The notes under the pieces: model-generated | Seen by the model: the letters and a program-made list of their open reading frames with translations, nothing else | Databases searched by the model: none | What the model was told of the DNA's origin: nothing | DNA from: SAR86 cluster bacterium | GTDB taxonomy: Bacteria; Pseudomonadota; Gammaproteobacteria; Magnimaribacterales; AG-339-G14 | Direction of reading: 5' to 3' | Assembly: GCA_028135785.1 (NCBI GenBank) | Contig: JAOIHS010000007.1 | Coordinates: 1-63,732 of the forward strand | DNA: 63,732 bases | Shown here: in pieces, positions 9,773 through 45,380 of the stretch | How positions within the stretch are numbered: position 1 is the first letter of the stretch | Layout: each line of letters starts with the position of its first letter | Made by a program: the position numbers and the translations under genes

Positions 9773-10855
9773 ATGAAAGATAGAAAAAAAGCGTTAATCA
9801 TAGGAATTACTGGACAAGATGGGTCTTATTTAGCGGAGTTACTTTTAAGTAAAGGTTATGAGGTGCATGGAACCAAAAGAAGATCATCATCTTTAAACAC
9901 CATGAGAATAGATCATATATATGAGGATCCTCATATTGATTCAAGGCAGTTAATTTTACACTATGGTGACTTAACAGACGCTTCCAACATTACCAGTCTA
10001 GTTCAGAAAATTTCTCCTGATGAAATATATAATTTAGGCGCACAATCTCATGTAGCTGTTAGCTTTGAGATGCCAGAGTACACTGCGCAAGTTGATGGAT
10101 TAGGAACTTTAAGGCTTCTAGAAGCAATCCGTCAATGTGGCTTAGAAAAAAAGACAAAGTTTTATCAAGCCTCTACTTCCGAGCTATATGGAATGGTTCA
10201 AGAGTCTCCTCAAAGAGAATCTACCCCGTTTTATCCTAGATCTCCTTATGGAGTTGCAAAGCTTTTTGGGTATTGGAGTGTAGTTAATTACAGAGAGGCA
10301 TATCAAATGTATGCCTGTAATGGAATATTATTCAATCACGAATCACCTCGAAGAGGAGAGACTTTTGTAACTAGAAAAATTACTAGAGGATTAGCTAGAA
10401 TAAATTATGGAATTGAAAAATGTCTCTATATTGGAAACTTAGATTCTTTAAGAGATTGGGGGCATGCTAAAGATTATGTTTATATGCAATGGATGATGCT
10501 TCAACAAGAGTCTCCAAAAGATTATGTTATTGCAACAGGAAAACAAATTTCTGTAAGAGATTTTGTGACAATGTCAGCTAAAAACCTTGGTATAAACATT
10601 ACTTTCAAAGGAAAAGAAAAAAGTGAGATAGGCATTATCGATAGTTTAGATAAAGAAAATAATTTTTTAAAAGAGGGAGACGTAATTGTAGAAGTTGATC
10701 CAAGATATTTTAGACCGACAGAGGTAGAAAGCTTACTGGGAGATGCATCAAAAGCAAAAAAAGATCTTGGATGGGAACCAAAAATATCTATAGAAGAAAT
10801 GTGTAAAGAAATGATTGAAGAAGACCTCAAAATAGCCAAACTAGAAATTAATTAA
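9773..10855 (+). CDS. gmd: GDP-mannose 4,6-dehydratase
   Basis: Converts GDP-D-mannose to GDP-4-keto-6-deoxy-D-mannose in the cytoplasm, the entry point to GDP-fucose, GDP-rhamnose and GDP-perosamine. 360 residues, the usual family length. NADP-binding loop [14 protein letters not shown] (11-24), catalytic ASTSELYG (133-140), Y159/K163 in [12 protein letters not shown], and [18 protein letters not shown] further on are all intact. The next gene encodes GDP-fucose synthase, so the two make GDP-L-fucose or a related sugar; the aminotransferase upstream could tap the same intermediate. No GDP-mannose supply genes are in the window. Confidence 0.97.
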
Positions 10856-38997: not shown

Positions 38998-40591
<1,594 letters not shown>

Positions 40592-40604: not shown

Positions 40605-41588
40605 TTAAGCTATTTTATTTTGTAGTTTGCCTACTTTTGATATTTCAAGCGTCATAACATCGCCTGAGTTTAAAAATTCCCAATGTTCTATTCCTGTACA
40701 GTCTGCTGGCGCGCCAGTTCCAAAAAATTCACCCGCTACTAACATTTCTCCTTCAGAGGCAAAAGCTATCATGTCCGAAATACTATGATGCATGTCAGAA
40801 ATAAGGCCAACACCTTTTAATGAATCATTGATTGAGACTCTGAGTTCAAGTTCTTTGGGATCTGGTATTTCATCTCGTGTCACTATCCATGGACCCATAA
40901 TATTTCCAGTTTGGAAATCTTTACCTTTTAGAGGTCCGGTAACTCCACGAAATTCAGGTAACAATCTTTTTCGAGCTGACATATCATTAAAAATTGTATA
41001 ACCAAATATGTAGTCCATGGCATTTTCTTTAGCTATGTCCATACCATTTTTACTGAGGATAATTCCAAGCTCGCATTCGTAATCGAGCATCGGCTCTTTA
41101 AAAGTCGGAGGGATAACATCGTCGCTTGGACCAATGAATGACGTATTTGAACCCTTATAATAGATAGGGGTTTCATAGAATTGTTTTGGAGGCTTGATAA
41201 ATTTTAGTAATTTATTTACCCGATAAGCAAAAGCTCCCATTTGATTACGAACCAAAGAATCAATTGATTGAAGCAAATGTTTCTCATAGACGCTAAAAGC
41301 TCTAAACTTCACTGGCACAGGCAGTGGGGCACATAAAAAAATATCAGTAAGATCTTCCAATTGACTTTCATTTTCTAGAGACCATCGTTCTATTTTCTTT
41401 ATAGCTTCTAATCCAGCATCACCTGATTCGATTAAAGTTTGCATGGTAGATAACTCATTACTCATATTTAAGTTTAATTTTTCATTACCCTTAAGAAGAT
41501 CGATGAAATGAGTTTCATGAGGAAGAACCAATCCTGTTCGAATTTTGGTCAAGTCATCTTTACTATGTTGATAGCTAATTAATTTCAT
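40605..41588 (-). CDS. Fumarylacetoacetase (FAH)-family enzyme
   Basis: 327 residues. The C-terminal FAH domain has the metal-binding block MLDYECELGIILS (about 167-179), then FNDMSARKRLLPEFRG, KGKDFQTGNIMGPWIV and the closing GAPADCTGIEHWEFLNSGD. Members hydrolyse, decarboxylate or isomerise 2-oxo acids and related compounds. Its ATG overlaps the cytidylyltransferase stop (ATGA), making it the fourth gene of the nonulosonate-like operon, so a 2-oxo-sugar acid substrate is conceivable; an ordinary aromatic-catabolism role is the alternative. Convergent with the tRNA, 13 bases away. Confidence 0.85.
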   Translation of the reverse strand: MKLISYQHSKDDLTKIRTGLVLPHETHFIDLLKGNEKLNLNMSNELSTMQTLIESGDAGLEAIKKIERWSLENESQLEDLTDIFLCAPLPVPVKFRAFSVYEKHLLQSIDSLVRNQMGAFAYRVNKLLKFIKPPKQFYETPIYYKGSNTSFIGPSDDVIPPTFKEPMLDYECELGIILSKNGMDIAKENAMDYIFGYTIFNDMSARKRLLPEFRGVTGPLKGKDFQTGNIMGPWIVTRDEIPDPKELELRVSINDSLKGVGLISDMHHSISDMIAFASEGEMLVAGEFFGTGAPADCTGIEHWEFLNSGDVMTLEISKVGKLQNKIA

Positions 41589-42274
41589 AATAGTTCTTCG
41601 TATAACTCAGTCTGTTCTGCTAAAAACCAATCTAATTCACTATCAATATCTATGCTTCTAGATTTAGGCATCACATAGGCAGATGTTTCACCGCAAAATC
41701 TTGTCTTATCTCTCAAAAAAGACTTTATATCAAAAATATAGATGGCACCATTTTCAGTAATTTGATTTTTAACAGACTGTCTTGCTGATCTTTTAATTTT
41801 ATTATGATTTATTGGTATAAATTTATTTCTTAAATTTTTCCAGATTGGCTTAAAATCTTTATATCCAGAAAATAAAGATTGAGAATTAGAATTCTCATAT
41901 AGATCCATTGCTTTCTCTATGTCTGTATAATTTCTTAACGGAGAAGTGCATTGAAGGAAGAGAATTGTATTATAACTATCAATATTATCTATATTGTTAA
42001 TAACTTCTGTGATTGCATCTTCTGATGAACTAAAATCTCCGGAATTCTTTTTTGATCTTAATATCCCTTGCGCTCCATATTTTTTAGCAGTTTTTATGAT
42101 TTCTTTGCCATCAGAAGATACATACATTTCAATATCTCTATTAATCTTTTTTGTTTCGATAATTGTTTTAGCTATAAGAGGCACGCCGTTAAATTCTTTT
42201 AAATTTTTTTTAATTATTCCTTTGGAGCCTTCTCTAGCAGGAATTATTACTAAATATTTAAAATTTTTATTCAC
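41585..42274 (-). CDS. CMP-nonulosonate (acylneuraminate) cytidylyltransferase
   Basis: 229 residues. IIPAREGSKGIIKKNLKEF (10-28) is the CTP-binding signature of the NeuA family; VSSDGKEI, FLQCTSPLRNYTDIEKAM and the later PKSRSIDIDSELDWFLAE (with the metal-binding DIDSELDW) are also as expected. It activates a nine-carbon 2-keto-3-deoxy sugar acid (Neu5Ac, legionaminate, pseudaminate or relatives) as the CMP derivative. The size is that of single-domain NeuA/PseF proteins. The NeuB-like synthase is two genes upstream. Confidence 0.9.
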   Translation of the reverse strand: MNKNFKYLVIIPAREGSKGIIKKNLKEFNGVPLIAKTIIETKKINRDIEMYVSSDGKEIIKTAKKYGAQGILRSKKNSGDFSSSEDAITEVINNIDNIDSYNTILFLQCTSPLRNYTDIEKAMDLYENSNSQSLFSGYKDFKPIWKNLRNKFIPINHNKIKRSARQSVKNQITENGAIYIFDIKSFLRDKTRFCGETSAYVMPKSRSIDIDSELDWFLAEQTELYEELL

Positions 42275-43277
42275 TTTGATAATCGTTATGTAAGTTTTGA
42301 ATTAATTCTTTTCCAGATATTAATTCATTAAAATTTAGTTTAGTTTTCAAAGCAGAGTTATCTGCTATTAAATTTCTTTTTTCATCGACGAGATCTCTTG
42401 AAATTTCTTTGGCTATTAATTTATCTTTATTATTATAAAACTCTATTAATCCTTCACCATTAGAAACTTTTTTAAATTCTATCGAATAAACTGTAAATAC
42501 GTTTTCAATAAACTGTTCTACAGACATTACGTTTCCAGTACCTAAAACAAATTTTCCAAAAATATTTTTTTTTGCTGCATCTAGAAAAATTGAGCAAAAA
42601 TCTTTAGCGTAACCCCAGTCTCTTGTGGATTTAGCGTTATAAAACTCAAGAATATCAGCTTCTTCGTTAATGTTATTTAGAATTTTATTAGCAAAGTTAA
42701 ATATCTTTTTTGAAAAGAACTGACGACCTCTATATATAGATTCATGGTTATACAAAATAGGTCTAAAGATCTTTAAACCAAAATTCTTTTCGTATAAATC
42801 GCATAGAAATAGATCTGTTACTTTTGAAATGCCATACGCATTTATTGGATTTATTTTAGTTATTTCATTTTGAGGAAAAATATCAGGACTTCCAAAAACT
42901 TCAGAGCTTAATGGCTGCATAAACCAAATATCTCTATTTGCGTTCTTTATTGCATCGAGAACACTATATGTAATTGAAAAGTTTTCGTTTATACAATTAA
43001 AAATATCCAAATTACTACTTTGGACAAAGCTGTTAGAGGCAAAATTAAAGACATGGGTGTATAACTCCTCTTTGAGTTTTTTATTTAATTCGAATGTATT
43101 AGTCAGATCCATATAGATAATGCGAATTTTTTTTTGGGATACTAGTTTTTTAAATGACTTTGGAATATCAGCTGAAGATCTTCTAACAATTAAATCAGCT
43201 TGAATGTTTTCACTCACAAGTAATTTGACTAAAACTTGAGCGTCTTGACTAAATCCTCCGCATATTAGAATTTTCAT
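42267..43277 (-). CDS. Gmd-like NAD-dependent epimerase/dehydratase
   Basis: 336 residues, extended SDR. ILICGGFSQDAQVLVKLL (3-20) is a variant of the GDP-mannose dehydratase loop (GxTGQDxxxL); QPLSSEVFG (121-129) and Y148/K152 in INAYGISKVTD are the catalytic set; LYNHESIYRGRQFFSKKI and STRDWGYAKDF match the Gmd donor-binding blocks. It is clearly shorter in conservation than the true Gmd at 9773, so another nucleotide sugar (perhaps UDP- or CDP-linked) is likely. It overlaps both neighbours (4 and 8 bases) in the four-gene operon. Confidence 0.85.
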   Translation of the reverse strand: MKILICGGFSQDAQVLVKLLVSENIQADLIVRRSSADIPKSFKKLVSQKKIRIIYMDLTNTFELNKKLKEELYTHVFNFASNSFVQSSNLDIFNCINENFSITYSVLDAIKNANRDIWFMQPLSSEVFGSPDIFPQNEITKINPINAYGISKVTDLFLCDLYEKNFGLKIFRPILYNHESIYRGRQFFSKKIFNFANKILNNINEEADILEFYNAKSTRDWGYAKDFCSIFLDAAKKNIFGKFVLGTGNVMSVEQFIENVFTVYSIEFKKVSNGEGLIEFYNNKDKLIAKEISRDLVDEKRNLIADNSALKTKLNFNELISGKELIQNLHNDYQSE

Positions 43278-45094
43278 TTTTTTACTTTATCAAACAAGAA
43301 CTCTAAAGCTGCATAAAACTTTTCTCCTACGTTATGATGTCCTTCCCAGACTTCCAGAACCTTTATCTCAGGATGATTTAAAATTTTCTGATAAGAATCA
43401 AGATCTCCTTTACCGAAATCAACTCCTTCTCCATCAATTCCTTCCCCATCAGAAATATGGATATGTTTTATTTGTTTTTTAAGACGAGAATACCAATCAT
43501 GCCAATCTGCATTGAAATAATTTGCTGATAAAATTAAATGGGAAAAGTCCAGACATAAACTAATATTATTTTTAATGATTAAATCTATATCCTCTTCCTC
43601 ACAAAATTGATTCAAGATGGCTGATCCTCCAAAGTACCAAGCTTTTTTGGGAAGCCATTGAGCTAATAAGTAAATATTGTGATCATTTTTAATATTTTCA
43701 CAAAAATTTTTAAATTCTTTATAAAAAATCTCCTTTTCAGAGGACCTTTCTGAAAAGCTTCCTAAAATTAAACAATCATTTCTTGATATATTTTTTATTA
43801 ACTTTGATGCCTCAATGCAAGTATCTATAATTTCTCTGCTCTTCTTCCTGATATTGTTTTTAGGTGAAAAAGGATCAATTAAACTATCACTACTAATATA
43901 ATCAGGCAAATGGATGCTAATGGAGTCTTCTTTTTCAATAAGATCTGTCAACAAACCAGGATTAATTTGAATTTTAAATACTTCTTCATATGAAAGGTGT
44001 AATTCAAAAAATCTGCCATTAAATCTATTTCTAATATTTTTGAAATCATGGAGTCTCACTGGAAGAGAAATTTTATGAGCATCTCTAAATTCTTGAACTT
44101 TAATGCTTATTTTGGATAATCTATTTAAGTGAGAGTCTAGAAGAGGGTCTCCTTTATGTACATCTTGTGTTAATTTAAATGATTGAATATTCTCAATTTC
44201 ATGACTCCTCAAGCCTGTTGCAGGAGACTTTTCAATTAAACTTGATGTTAGAATTTCATCTCCTTTTTTATGATTCTCATTAAAGTACAAGCCAGTTCCT
44301 AAACTCCTTATATTTAGAATTTCTCCTTGATTAATCTCTCTTCTAGGGCAAGAAATAATTTCATTATATTTTGAAATTATTTTATTCATCATAATAAATT
44401 CATTTAAATCAGAACTAGTAGAAATATCTAATCCAAGGTCTTCTTTTGAAAGACATATATGTCTTTCTATAAAATCAATTTCATATTGCAGCGCTAGTAA
44501 TGCAATTTCACAGTTTTCATCATGAGATGAATATCCAATATTCGCTTTTGTCATGTTTTTCATCCGAGAAATAAAACTTAGTTGCTGATTTCCAATTGAT
44601 ATTGGATAGTTTGCAATACAATGAAAAGCACAATCATTCTTATCTAAATTAGATAGTTTGAGATACTTTTCAATCTCATCTTCAGATCCGCCGCCATAAC
44701 TAATCATAACGGGAAGATTTTTAGTTTTAGCCAATTTTATTAAACTAATATTTCTAAATTCAGCAGAAGGTATTTTAATAAAATCAATCTCAAATCCTGT
44801 CAGAAAAAAGTCTTCAAGATCTTTTTTTCTAAAGAAGCTAAAGCCAATTTTTAACTTATTATCTTTTGAGATATTTATTAGTTCTGGTATCCAAGAAGTA
44901 TTTAATGAACTTCTTTCTAGTTCTGATTTAATCAAAGTGCTACCTAATTCATGATTCTCAGCAAAAAAATCTTCAGATCTATATTGAAATTTAACTCCCC
45001 AGGTTTTGGAAGATGCTGCATTAAGAATTAATTTTTTTGCGTTATCTAGTTCACCCCTATGATTAATTCCAATCTCAGCTATTAATTTAGTCAT
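43274..45094 (-). CDS. NeuB-like nonulosonate synthase fused to a xylose-isomerase-like TIM barrel
   Basis: 606 residues in three parts. Residues 1-245 are the NeuB barrel: IAEIGINHRGEL (5-16), GVKFQYRSEDFF (33-44), CIANYPIS (159-166), GYSSHD (187-192; H191) and ERHICLSKEDLG (210-221; H212), the two metal histidines. Residues about 255-328 are the antifreeze-like/SAF domain. Its K-R-P-G-x-G block reads K-S-P-A-T-G (289-294), so the arginine that reaches the substrate in neisserial NeuB is a serine. Residues 330-606 are an AP-endonuclease-2/xylose-isomerase-type barrel with LDFSH (515-519), HIHISDG (544-550) and EVWEGHH (581-587). First gene of the operon; the fusion suggests that an epimerase step and condensation are coupled. 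Confidence 0.86.
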   Translation of the reverse strand: MTKLIAEIGINHRGELDNAKKLILNAASSKTWGVKFQYRSEDFFAENHELGSTLIKSELERSSLNTSWIPELINISKDNKLKIGFSFFRKKDLEDFFLTGFEIDFIKIPSAEFRNISLIKLAKTKNLPVMISYGGGSEDEIEKYLKLSNLDKNDCAFHCIANYPISIGNQQLSFISRMKNMTKANIGYSSHDENCEIALLALQYEIDFIERHICLSKEDLGLDISTSSDLNEFIMMNKIISKYNEIISCPRREINQGEILNIRSLGTGLYFNENHKKGDEILTSSLIEKSPATGLRSHEIENIQSFKLTQDVHKGDPLLDSHLNRLSKISIKVQEFRDAHKISLPVRLHDFKNIRNRFNGRFFELHLSYEEVFKIQINPGLLTDLIEKEDSISIHLPDYISSDSLIDPFSPKNNIRKKSREIIDTCIEASKLIKNISRNDCLILGSFSERSSEKEIFYKEFKNFCENIKNDHNIYLLAQWLPKKAWYFGGSAILNQFCEEEDIDLIIKNNISLCLDFSHLILSANYFNADWHDWYSRLKKQIKHIHISDGEGIDGEGVDFGKGDLDSYQKILNHPEIKVLEVWEGHHNVGEKFYAALEFLFDKVKK

Positions 45095-45164: not shown

Positions 45165-45380
45165 CTACCTTTTCTTGACTAAAAAAATTAATGTTTCTTC
45201 ATTCTTGTTGAATGATAAAAGTTCATGATTTAAATATTCGCAAAATTTTTGAACATCTTTAATTGAAGTTGGATCGGTTGCAACCAATTCAACAGTGTCA
45301 CCTGATTTAGATTCATATATTGCTTGGTGAAGAAGCATGATCGGCTCAGGACAAATTAATCCAATTGCATCAACTTTCAT
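45165..45380 (-). CDS. TusA/SirA-family sulfur-carrier protein
   Basis: 71 residues. The conserved active-site block is GLICPEPIM (7-15; C10 carries sulfur in TusA). The rest, SGDTVELVATDPTSIKDVQKF, is the standard fold. TusA transfers sulfur to TusBCD for tRNA thio-modification, but many relatives serve other sulfur routes. Lies alone between two gaps of about 60-70 bases, same strand as its neighbours. Confidence 0.88.
   Translation of the reverse strand: MKVDAIGLICPEPIMLLHQAIYESKSGDTVELVATDPTSIKDVQKFCEYLNHELLSFNKNEETLIFLVKKR

Follow-up and report, generated by a model that had tools for sequence, protein, structure and literature searches.

Which sugar acid would be made by a bacterium whose nonulosonic-acid synthase is fused to a second barrel and encoded next to a homolog of GDP-mannose 4,6-dehydratase (Gmd)? 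The question is raised by a locus of a SAR86 cluster bacterium (contig JAOIHS010000007.1 of assembly GCA_028135785.1, positions 1 to 63,732; this whole stretch of 63,732 nucleotides is called the window here). At positions 40605-45094, four open reading frames (ORFs) on the minus strand have ends overlapping by 4, 8, and 4 bases (in order, ATGA, GTGAATAA, and ATGA), and the Pfam E-values of their products are far beyond chance:

43274..45094, minus strand: fused nonulosonic-acid synthase, 606 amino acids (PF03102 NeuB, 7e-31; PF01261 AP_endonuc_2, 4e-10)
42267..43277, minus strand: diverged Gmd-like short-chain dehydrogenase/reductase (SDR), probable GDP-sugar 4,6-dehydratase, 336 amino acids (PF16363 GDP_Man_Dehyd, 1e-52)
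41585..42274, minus strand: NeuA/PseF-like cytidylyltransferase for a cytidine monophosphate (CMP)-nonulosonic acid, 229 amino acids, GTG start (PF02348 CTP_transf_3, 4e-21)
40605..41588, minus strand: FAH-family enzyme, probably outside the pathway, 327 amino acids (PF01557 FAA_hydrolase, 1.4e-48)

An initial annotation, made from the sequence alone, had described these genes beside a tRNA-Pro gene as a four-gene operon for an unusual sialic-acid-like sugar. The arrangement was borne out by the ORF list, ARAGORN, and Pfam. As to its function, I estimate a probability of about one half that three of the genes form a module for a CMP-activated nonulosonic acid without an N-acetyl group at C5, resembling 2-keto-3-deoxynononic acid (KDN) and most likely a deoxy-KDN, and that the FAH gene lies outside it. 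The module is real, small, and conserved, and it is a variant of the known NeuB-barrel (KDN-type) synthesis systems.

The fused synthase family and its conserved unit

Is the fusion itself new? A search of the genome_contigs collection with the whole synthase as a single protein gave no match. With an alignment of the C-terminal barrel from four relatives, 303 encoding stretches were found, and the best 80 were kept and examined. Novelty of the fusion was rejected, since a single frame encodes both the NeuB and the barrel part in 74 of these 80 loci, two of them cut at the N-terminus by a contig edge (L042 and L095). The others are L044 and L080, which hold the barrel only, at a contig edge, and L074, L078, L087, and L111, which gave no called frame at the threshold. 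The fused chain is longer than 700 amino acid residues in 51 of the 74, and 40 match an N-terminal CBS reference. Four fused synthases were also found in viral_contigs, where no relatives of the Gmd-like or FAH proteins were found. Among plasmids, 72 records match, and one alone covers more than 80% of the synthase, with 25.7% identity.

In a NeuB-domain tree of 107 rows (L041, which is the same place as L031, and L118 and L119, near copies of L117, were dropped), 28 unfused synthases stand on one side of a branch (SH-aLRT 94). Clade A comprises 53 rows, mostly CBS-bearing, including a Serratia proteamaculans protein. Clade B comprises 17 rows, often beside genes for a GHMP kinase, a GmhA-like isomerase, and SDRs. 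The window belongs to clade C (8 rows, support 100) together with SAR86 genome G014, three near-identical Roseibium/Labrenzia sequences, one of Pelagibacteraceae, and two of Polynucleobacter. A Prochlorococcus row with a long branch joins clade C in this tree (support 88); in a careful tree of 42 fused chains, clade C received 100/100 without it. The inner order of clade C is unsure owing to long branches. The initial annotation had proposed a phylogeny of the synthase against NeuB, LegI, and PseI. In the trees described here, of fused and unfused synthases, it falls in this separate clade, and its scores are far under two equivalog cut-offs: 127 of 399.65 bits for TIGR03569 (NeuB) and 119.1 of 340.25 bits for TIGR03586 (PseI).

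Clade C looks rare. Among 203 genomes of the order, eight matched its profile. Two of these, the window and G014, had contributed to the profile and exceed 940 bits, and the six others, among them the clade-A G050 and the clade-B G047, lie at 358-384 bits. Four further genomes, out of 398 sampled across the phylum, gave scores of 335-357 bits. These ten weaker matches are only partly placed in the tree, and the sample, like that used below for FAH relatives, is a draw and not all genomes.

Which genes accompany the clade-C synthases? The Gmd-like gene directly adjoins the synthase gene in the window and in all seven fetched clade-C loci (L037-L043), whereas this was seen in none of the 71 other fetched fused-synthase loci (including three near copies from viral contigs). 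The overlap between the two genes is 8 bases in G014 and in the two Roseibium/Labrenzia loci that were measured. The cytidylyltransferase gene follows the Gmd-like gene in the window (41585-42274, two genes downstream of the synthase), in G014, and in Roseibium/Labrenzia. Judging from this gene order, the conserved unit is three genes, not four: synthase, Gmd-like SDR, and cytidylyltransferase. In the L043 locus of Polynucleobacter, genes for an SDR, a Gfo/Idh oxidoreductase, a thiamine diphosphate enzyme, and a methyltransferase come after the Gmd-like gene.

The best solved relatives of the cytidylyltransferase are CMP-N-acetylneuraminic acid (Neu5Ac) synthetases (1qwj and 1eyr), and it scores 112.6 of 205.7 bits against the PseF equivalog. 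In G014, a flippase gene comes after the triplet, and two genes on there is a gene encoding a polysialyltransferase-like protein (PF07388, 7e-14). These neighbors suggest that the product is a CMP-nonulosonic acid.

The active sites and the predicted product

The synthase consists of a NeuB barrel (about residues 1-245), an antifreeze/SAF domain (about 255-320), and a barrel resembling D-tagatose 3-epimerase (about 340-606). An AlphaFold2 model of the whole chain (pLDDT 92, pTM 0.77) matches NeuB structures in its N part (6ncs, Z 31.5; 2wqp, Z 31.1) and 3wqo in its C part (Z 20.7). In the alignment, the residues for phosphoenolpyruvate (PEP) and metal are kept in the NeuB half: K107, S110, S189, H191, E210, H212, and D223. 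In meningococcal NeuB (NmeNeuB), His236 is a residue of this kind. Four others, Lys129, Ser213, His215, and Glu234, are listed in PMC6795526. In the same paper, Arg314 is the sole SAF-domain residue acting directly in the active site, where it positions the N-acetyl group of N-acetylmannosamine; the R314A enzyme is inactive, R314K is active, and mannose is not accepted by the wild type.

Is Arg314 kept in the fused synthases? The position could be fixed because the solved chains of the wild type, R314A, and R314K show R, A, and K there in the alignment, and it is occupied by Ser290 in the window. The comparison covered 107 rows, including L101 (Ser) and L045 (Tyr), which were first outside the groups and then added. 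None of the 79 fused rows has Arg. Clade A has Ser in 50, Gly in 2, and Ala in 1 of 53 rows, and clade B has Ser in 16 of 16. In clade C, Ser and Ala occur four times each, the Ala rows being three near copies and Pelagibacteraceae. In contrast, Arg is present in 21 of the 28 unfused rows (one Gly, six gaps; thus 21 of 22 with a letter). Since none of the fused synthases compared keeps Arg314, a KDN-like product is probable, which would derive from a non-acetylated sugar and might be 9-deoxy. Clade C is also set apart by two active-site neighbors, Glu112 (Asp in the others) and Ser190 (Gly in the others), in 8 of 8 rows versus 71 of 71 other fused synthases, so its substrate may differ from mannose. 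In comparison with meningococcal NeuB (SiaC) and Campylobacter jejuni PseI, the window synthase shares the NeuB barrel, the SAF domain, and the PEP and metal residues; it differs by the Ser in place of Arg314, the extra C-terminal barrel, and the far lower equivalog scores.

What would the second barrel do? Modeled alone (pLDDT 89.5), it best matches 3ayv and 3wqo (Z 20.8), UlaE (20.1), and xylose isomerases (about 19). The metal site of D-tagatose 3-epimerase and COG1082 proteins is Glu-Asp-His-Glu, and the epimerase mechanism uses two Glu residues. The barrel of the window shares the fold (Z 20-21) and keeps Asp516, His546, and the second Glu (Glu581), but the full site is not present, the first Glu being replaced by Gln479. 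Gln occupies this position in all 42 aligned fused synthases. The two-Glu mechanism would thus be altered, and the whole fused family may perform chemistry other than 3-epimerization.

The Gmd-like SDR shares with GDP-mannose 4,6-dehydratase the Pfam domain and the NADP and GDP-type signatures. The catalytic residues of Gmd are Ser/Thr-x-Glu and Tyr-x-x-x-Lys, and the window protein keeps them (Ser-Ser-Glu, SSE; YGISK) as well as the RRSS, NHES..RG, and RDWG signatures. It differs by an altered glycine motif and by its score of 135.5 of 415 bits against TIGR01472 (the gmd equivalog), which does not reach the cut-off. A canonical gmd (9773-10855, 572.6 bits) exists elsewhere in the window, inside a polysaccharide locus, so GDP-sugar chemistry occurs in the cell. 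Since that gene adjoins an epimerase-family gene resembling fcl by eye, the Gmd-like copy is probably not the fucose enzyme.

The pathway proposed here, with all its substrates, its product, and the order of its steps, is my inference and goes beyond what is read in the sequence, namely the genes, the fusion, the clade, the constant Gmd-like neighbor, the PEP and metal residues, and the loss of Arg314. The Gmd-like SDR would make a GDP-linked 4-keto-6-deoxyhexose feeding the precursor; the fused barrel would isomerize a sugar into a free non-acetamido hexose; the NeuB half would condense this hexose with PEP; and the cytidylyltransferase would make the CMP-sugar for a surface glycan. Since the Gmd-like SDR would feed a 6-deoxy precursor, the end product would most likely be a deoxy-KDN, e.g., a 3,9-dideoxy-nonulosonic acid. 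The initial annotation had suggested that the fused barrel and the Gmd-like enzyme supply a different six-carbon precursor and that the FAH-family enzyme may handle a 2-oxo acid. The first part is likely, because the synthase falls well short of both the NeuB and the PseI cut-off, forms its own clade, and lacks the residue placing the N-acetyl group, and the Gmd-like gene is its conserved partner; the role of the FAH enzyme is not supported.

Does any related system have a reported product? In a capsule study (PMC9000132), the KL1/KL2 loci of Serratia marcescens contain neuA and a form of neuB that encodes an additional sugar phosphate isomerase/epimerase (COG1082) domain. There, a neuB deletion lowers sialic acid fourfold and complementation restores it; the polysaccharide has KDN and Neu5Ac at about 20:1, and both are lost in a capsule-region deletion (a 2025 follow-up is PMC12077157). 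The S. marcescens neuB is given as 2241 bp, which is the length for the 746-residue S. proteamaculans protein of L114 (clade A, no Gmd-like neighbor), and the comparison was made via L114. The NeuB, SAF, and COG1082-like barrel chain and a nearby cytidylyltransferase gene are common features, accompanied in Serratia by a surface-polysaccharide role. In contrast, the window synthase is in clade C and not A (100/100), has 606 residues and a Gmd-like neighbor, and differs in the active-site neighbors. The loss of Arg314 fits the KDN found in Serratia and argues against Neu5Ac, legionaminic acid, or pseudaminic acid as the product. Of the initial statement that no pathway with this gene set has been described, one half must be given up, as the fused synthase has this KDN precedent; the other half stands, as literature searches covering few subscription papers found no paper on the Gmd-coupled clade.

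Several results weigh against the deoxy-KDN module. Clade C represents only about five separate lineages, the Roseibium/Labrenzia (three) and Polynucleobacter (two) members being near copies. The Gmd-like partner in Pelagibacteraceae lacks the catalytic Glu, and the Gmd partners are not one clade; their tree, in which branches are very long, places that of the window with another Gmd-like protein (support 89). No enzyme was identified for the reduction of the 4-keto group or for the release of the sugar from GDP, and the GMP/PMI family had no match in the genome of the window, which is 0.95 Mb and 65% complete and of which the window is contig 18. The cytidylyltransferase gene is two genes away on the opposite strand in Pelagibacteraceae, and in neither Polynucleobacter locus (L042 and L043, one of which starts at a contig edge) was it found at a distance of up to six genes. 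PF07388 was not found in six of the seven clade-C genomes searched, including that of the window. Finally, KDN is shown for Serratia alone, whose relative L114 lies in clade A, and for a capsule locus rather than a purified enzyme.

Could the product be plain KDN? The synthase and the cytidylyltransferase would then suffice, and the Gmd-like gene would serve another sugar of the glycan, e.g., a GDP-6-deoxyhexose. I consider this unlikely, though it is the strongest competitor of the deoxy-KDN module. It agrees with the Serratia neuA/neuB loci, with the gmd and fcl-like pair elsewhere in the window, and with a cytidylyltransferase gene within six genes of the fused synthase in 56 of 76 loci examined (L074, L078, L087, and L111 excluded). 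However, it does not explain why, among the fetched loci, the Gmd-like gene adjoins the synthase throughout clade C and nowhere else, nor the differences of clade C from A and B inside the NeuB active site, and a second gmd would be unneeded for the GDP-6-deoxyhexose route.

A bolder form of the deoxy-KDN proposal is that clade C makes an undescribed class of amino-free nonulosonic acid, derived from a GDP-derived 6-deoxyhexose and not from UDP-N-acetylglucosamine (3,9-dideoxy-KDN or an epimer), with the Gmd-like enzyme and the altered-metal-site barrel as a new precursor route. I put this forward tentatively, as an idea with rather less than an even chance of being right. If the proposal is true, the loss of Arg314 together with the fused epimerase barrel is a sequence rule that may separate non-acetylated, KDN-like synthases from NeuB and PseI, and clade C is a small named group expected to make something other than KDN itself. 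An abundant and uncultured bacterium of the ocean would then also bear a sialic-acid-like sugar. A cultured marine relative that has all three genes, Roseibium marinum DSM 17023 (locus L037), would allow the prediction to be tested; for the DMB derivatives, the computed [M+H]+ is m/z 385.12 with KDN and m/z 369.13 with 9-deoxy-KDN.

An eight-carbon acid (like 3-deoxy-D-manno-octulosonic acid, KDO) or other ulosonic acid, for which the fused barrel would provide a pentose, is improbable. The NeuB half does resemble KDO8P synthases in fold (Z about 20.7), and UlaE, which matches the barrel, is a ketose 3-epimerase acting on a pentulose phosphate. However, the similarity to NeuB structures is much stronger (Z about 31), the chain has an SAF domain, and the closest relative in the family whose product has been reported, that of Serratia, comes from a locus making nine-carbon acids.

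The FAH gene and the remaining alternatives

Does the FAH gene belong to the module? If all four genes formed one pathway, the FAH enzyme would act on a 2-oxo acid. The four-base overlap of its gene with the cytidylyltransferase gene agrees with this, as does its position inside the block that replaces a CoA-transferase gene of the relatives. Moreover, some FAH-family enzymes act on 3-deoxy-2-oxo sugar acids: the protein matches NF053535 (2,4-didehydro-3-deoxy-L-rhamnonate hydrolase) at 2.7e-29, but with 102.3 of 500 bits. The metal motif of the FAH superfamily is ExE plus Asp, and it is present here (YECELG at 170, NDMSAR at 201).

However, no FAH relative was found by phmmer (1e-8) in 90 loci (L031-L120), 81 of which hold the fused synthase (L034, L035, and L036 hold unfused synthases only). 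These 90 include L041, which repeats L031, and the near copies L117, L118, and L119. The initial annotation had suggested searching for the four-gene set in other genomes; in the loci searched, three of the genes recur and the FAH gene does not. FAH-family relatives do occur without the other three genes, an outcome that the initial annotation had named as one that would refute its reading. Matches exist in 62 of 101 relatives searched, including the genome of the window, which has a second one, and outside the window gene the identity is 27-37%. The nearest full-length relative found (38%, in G117) adjoins genes for a flavin monooxygenase-like protein, an AMP-binding ligase, a cyclase, a TetR regulator, and a cupin, a catabolic-looking cluster.

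The GC content differs as well, being 35.8% for the FAH gene and 27.5-28.8% for the triplet. The mean is 28.6 for the polysaccharide genes of the window (n=15, SD 2.4) and 33.0 for its other genes (n=22, SD 3.7). The triplet thus resembles the former and the FAH gene the latter, with a wide spread: the triplet is within 1.1-1.5 SD of the other genes, and the FAH gene is 0.7 SD above these and 2.9 SD above the polysaccharide genes. GC content alone is a weak argument on membership. Membership of the FAH gene in the module was rejected on the missing matches and the differing GC content, and a single four-gene pathway is very improbable; the FAH gene is probably a hitchhiker or a separate catabolic gene.

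As the initial annotation had stated, a 2-epimerase and an aminotransferase are missing from the four-gene block; the DegT aminotransferase gene of the window is about 33 kb away, inside the polysaccharide locus. The least probable product is ordinary Neu5Ac, legionaminic acid, or pseudaminic acid, the lacking steps being encoded at other places of the genome. In favor of it are the incompleteness of the assembly (NeuC or the aminotransferase could be missing from it), this DegT gene, NeuC-family genes above the cut-off in the Pelagibacteraceae genome G949, and the minor Neu5Ac of S. marcescens; against it are the loss of Arg314 throughout clade C, equivalog scores of about one third of the cut-offs, and the lack of a NeuC match in five of seven clade-C genomes searched, including two of Roseibium (5.5 and 6.1 Mb), the match in G014 being far under the cut-off.

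The genomic spot and other loci

Has the block been at this place for long? It lies between two edges:

40515..40591, plus strand: tRNA-Pro(ggg), edge of the variable spot (ARAGORN)
45165..45380, minus strand: TusA gene, the other edge (PF01206, 7e-19)

The gap between the tRNA gene and the end of the FAH gene, the last of the four, is 13 bases. Eight relatives were examined. A tRNA-Pro(ggg) is at the matching place in six of them, TusA copies with 63-71% identity are present in all eight, and the synthase block is at this spot in none. The six relatives with both edges have a gene for a CoA-transferase of family III between the tRNA-Pro and TusA genes (identified by PF02515 in G004 and in the others by similarity to the G004 gene). 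The contig of G005 begins inside the CoA-transferase gene, and in G003 other genes follow it, with no tRNA found in the stretch taken. The nearest congener, G004, has a flanking carboxyltransferase 94% identical to that of the window, yet it lacks the synthase block. A cytidylyltransferase-cupin gene located between the TusA and MATE genes in the relatives is missing in the window. A recent acquisition or replacement at this spot is the probable origin of the block, and the three-gene module was probably acquired horizontally. A mobile island integrated at the tRNA gene was rejected; no integrase was seen by eye in the ORF list near the block, and no integrase family search was made.

A sialyltransferase was looked for beside the triplet of the window, and none was seen. 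An MptE-like protein (1932-2816) scores below its Pfam cut-off, and no solved structure is related to it by sequence; it is an unproven candidate for the glycosyltransferase using the CMP-sugar. On viral-class contigs, the fused synthases of L117 and L120 are beside or near GT29-family sialyltransferases (PF00777, 3e-19 and 7e-20).

Other neighborhoods were found in the other clades. In clade-B loci including L046, L049, L056, and L033, a nucleotidyltransferase, a GHMP kinase, a GmhA-like isomerase, and sometimes a GmhB-like HAD protein are encoded next to the synthase, which I take to resemble the GDP-heptose gene set, coupled to a nonulosonic-type synthase. In L032 (6607-11862, G050) and L100, both of the SAR86 order, genes for a cytidylyltransferase, an Fe-alcohol dehydrogenase, a DegT aminotransferase, and a CBS-NeuB-barrel protein stand in a row, reminiscent of the KdnA/KdnB pair of 8-amino-KDO synthesis. 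The L044 contig, which carries the barrel domain, is binned as Bifidobacterium breve, and mis-binning is probable.

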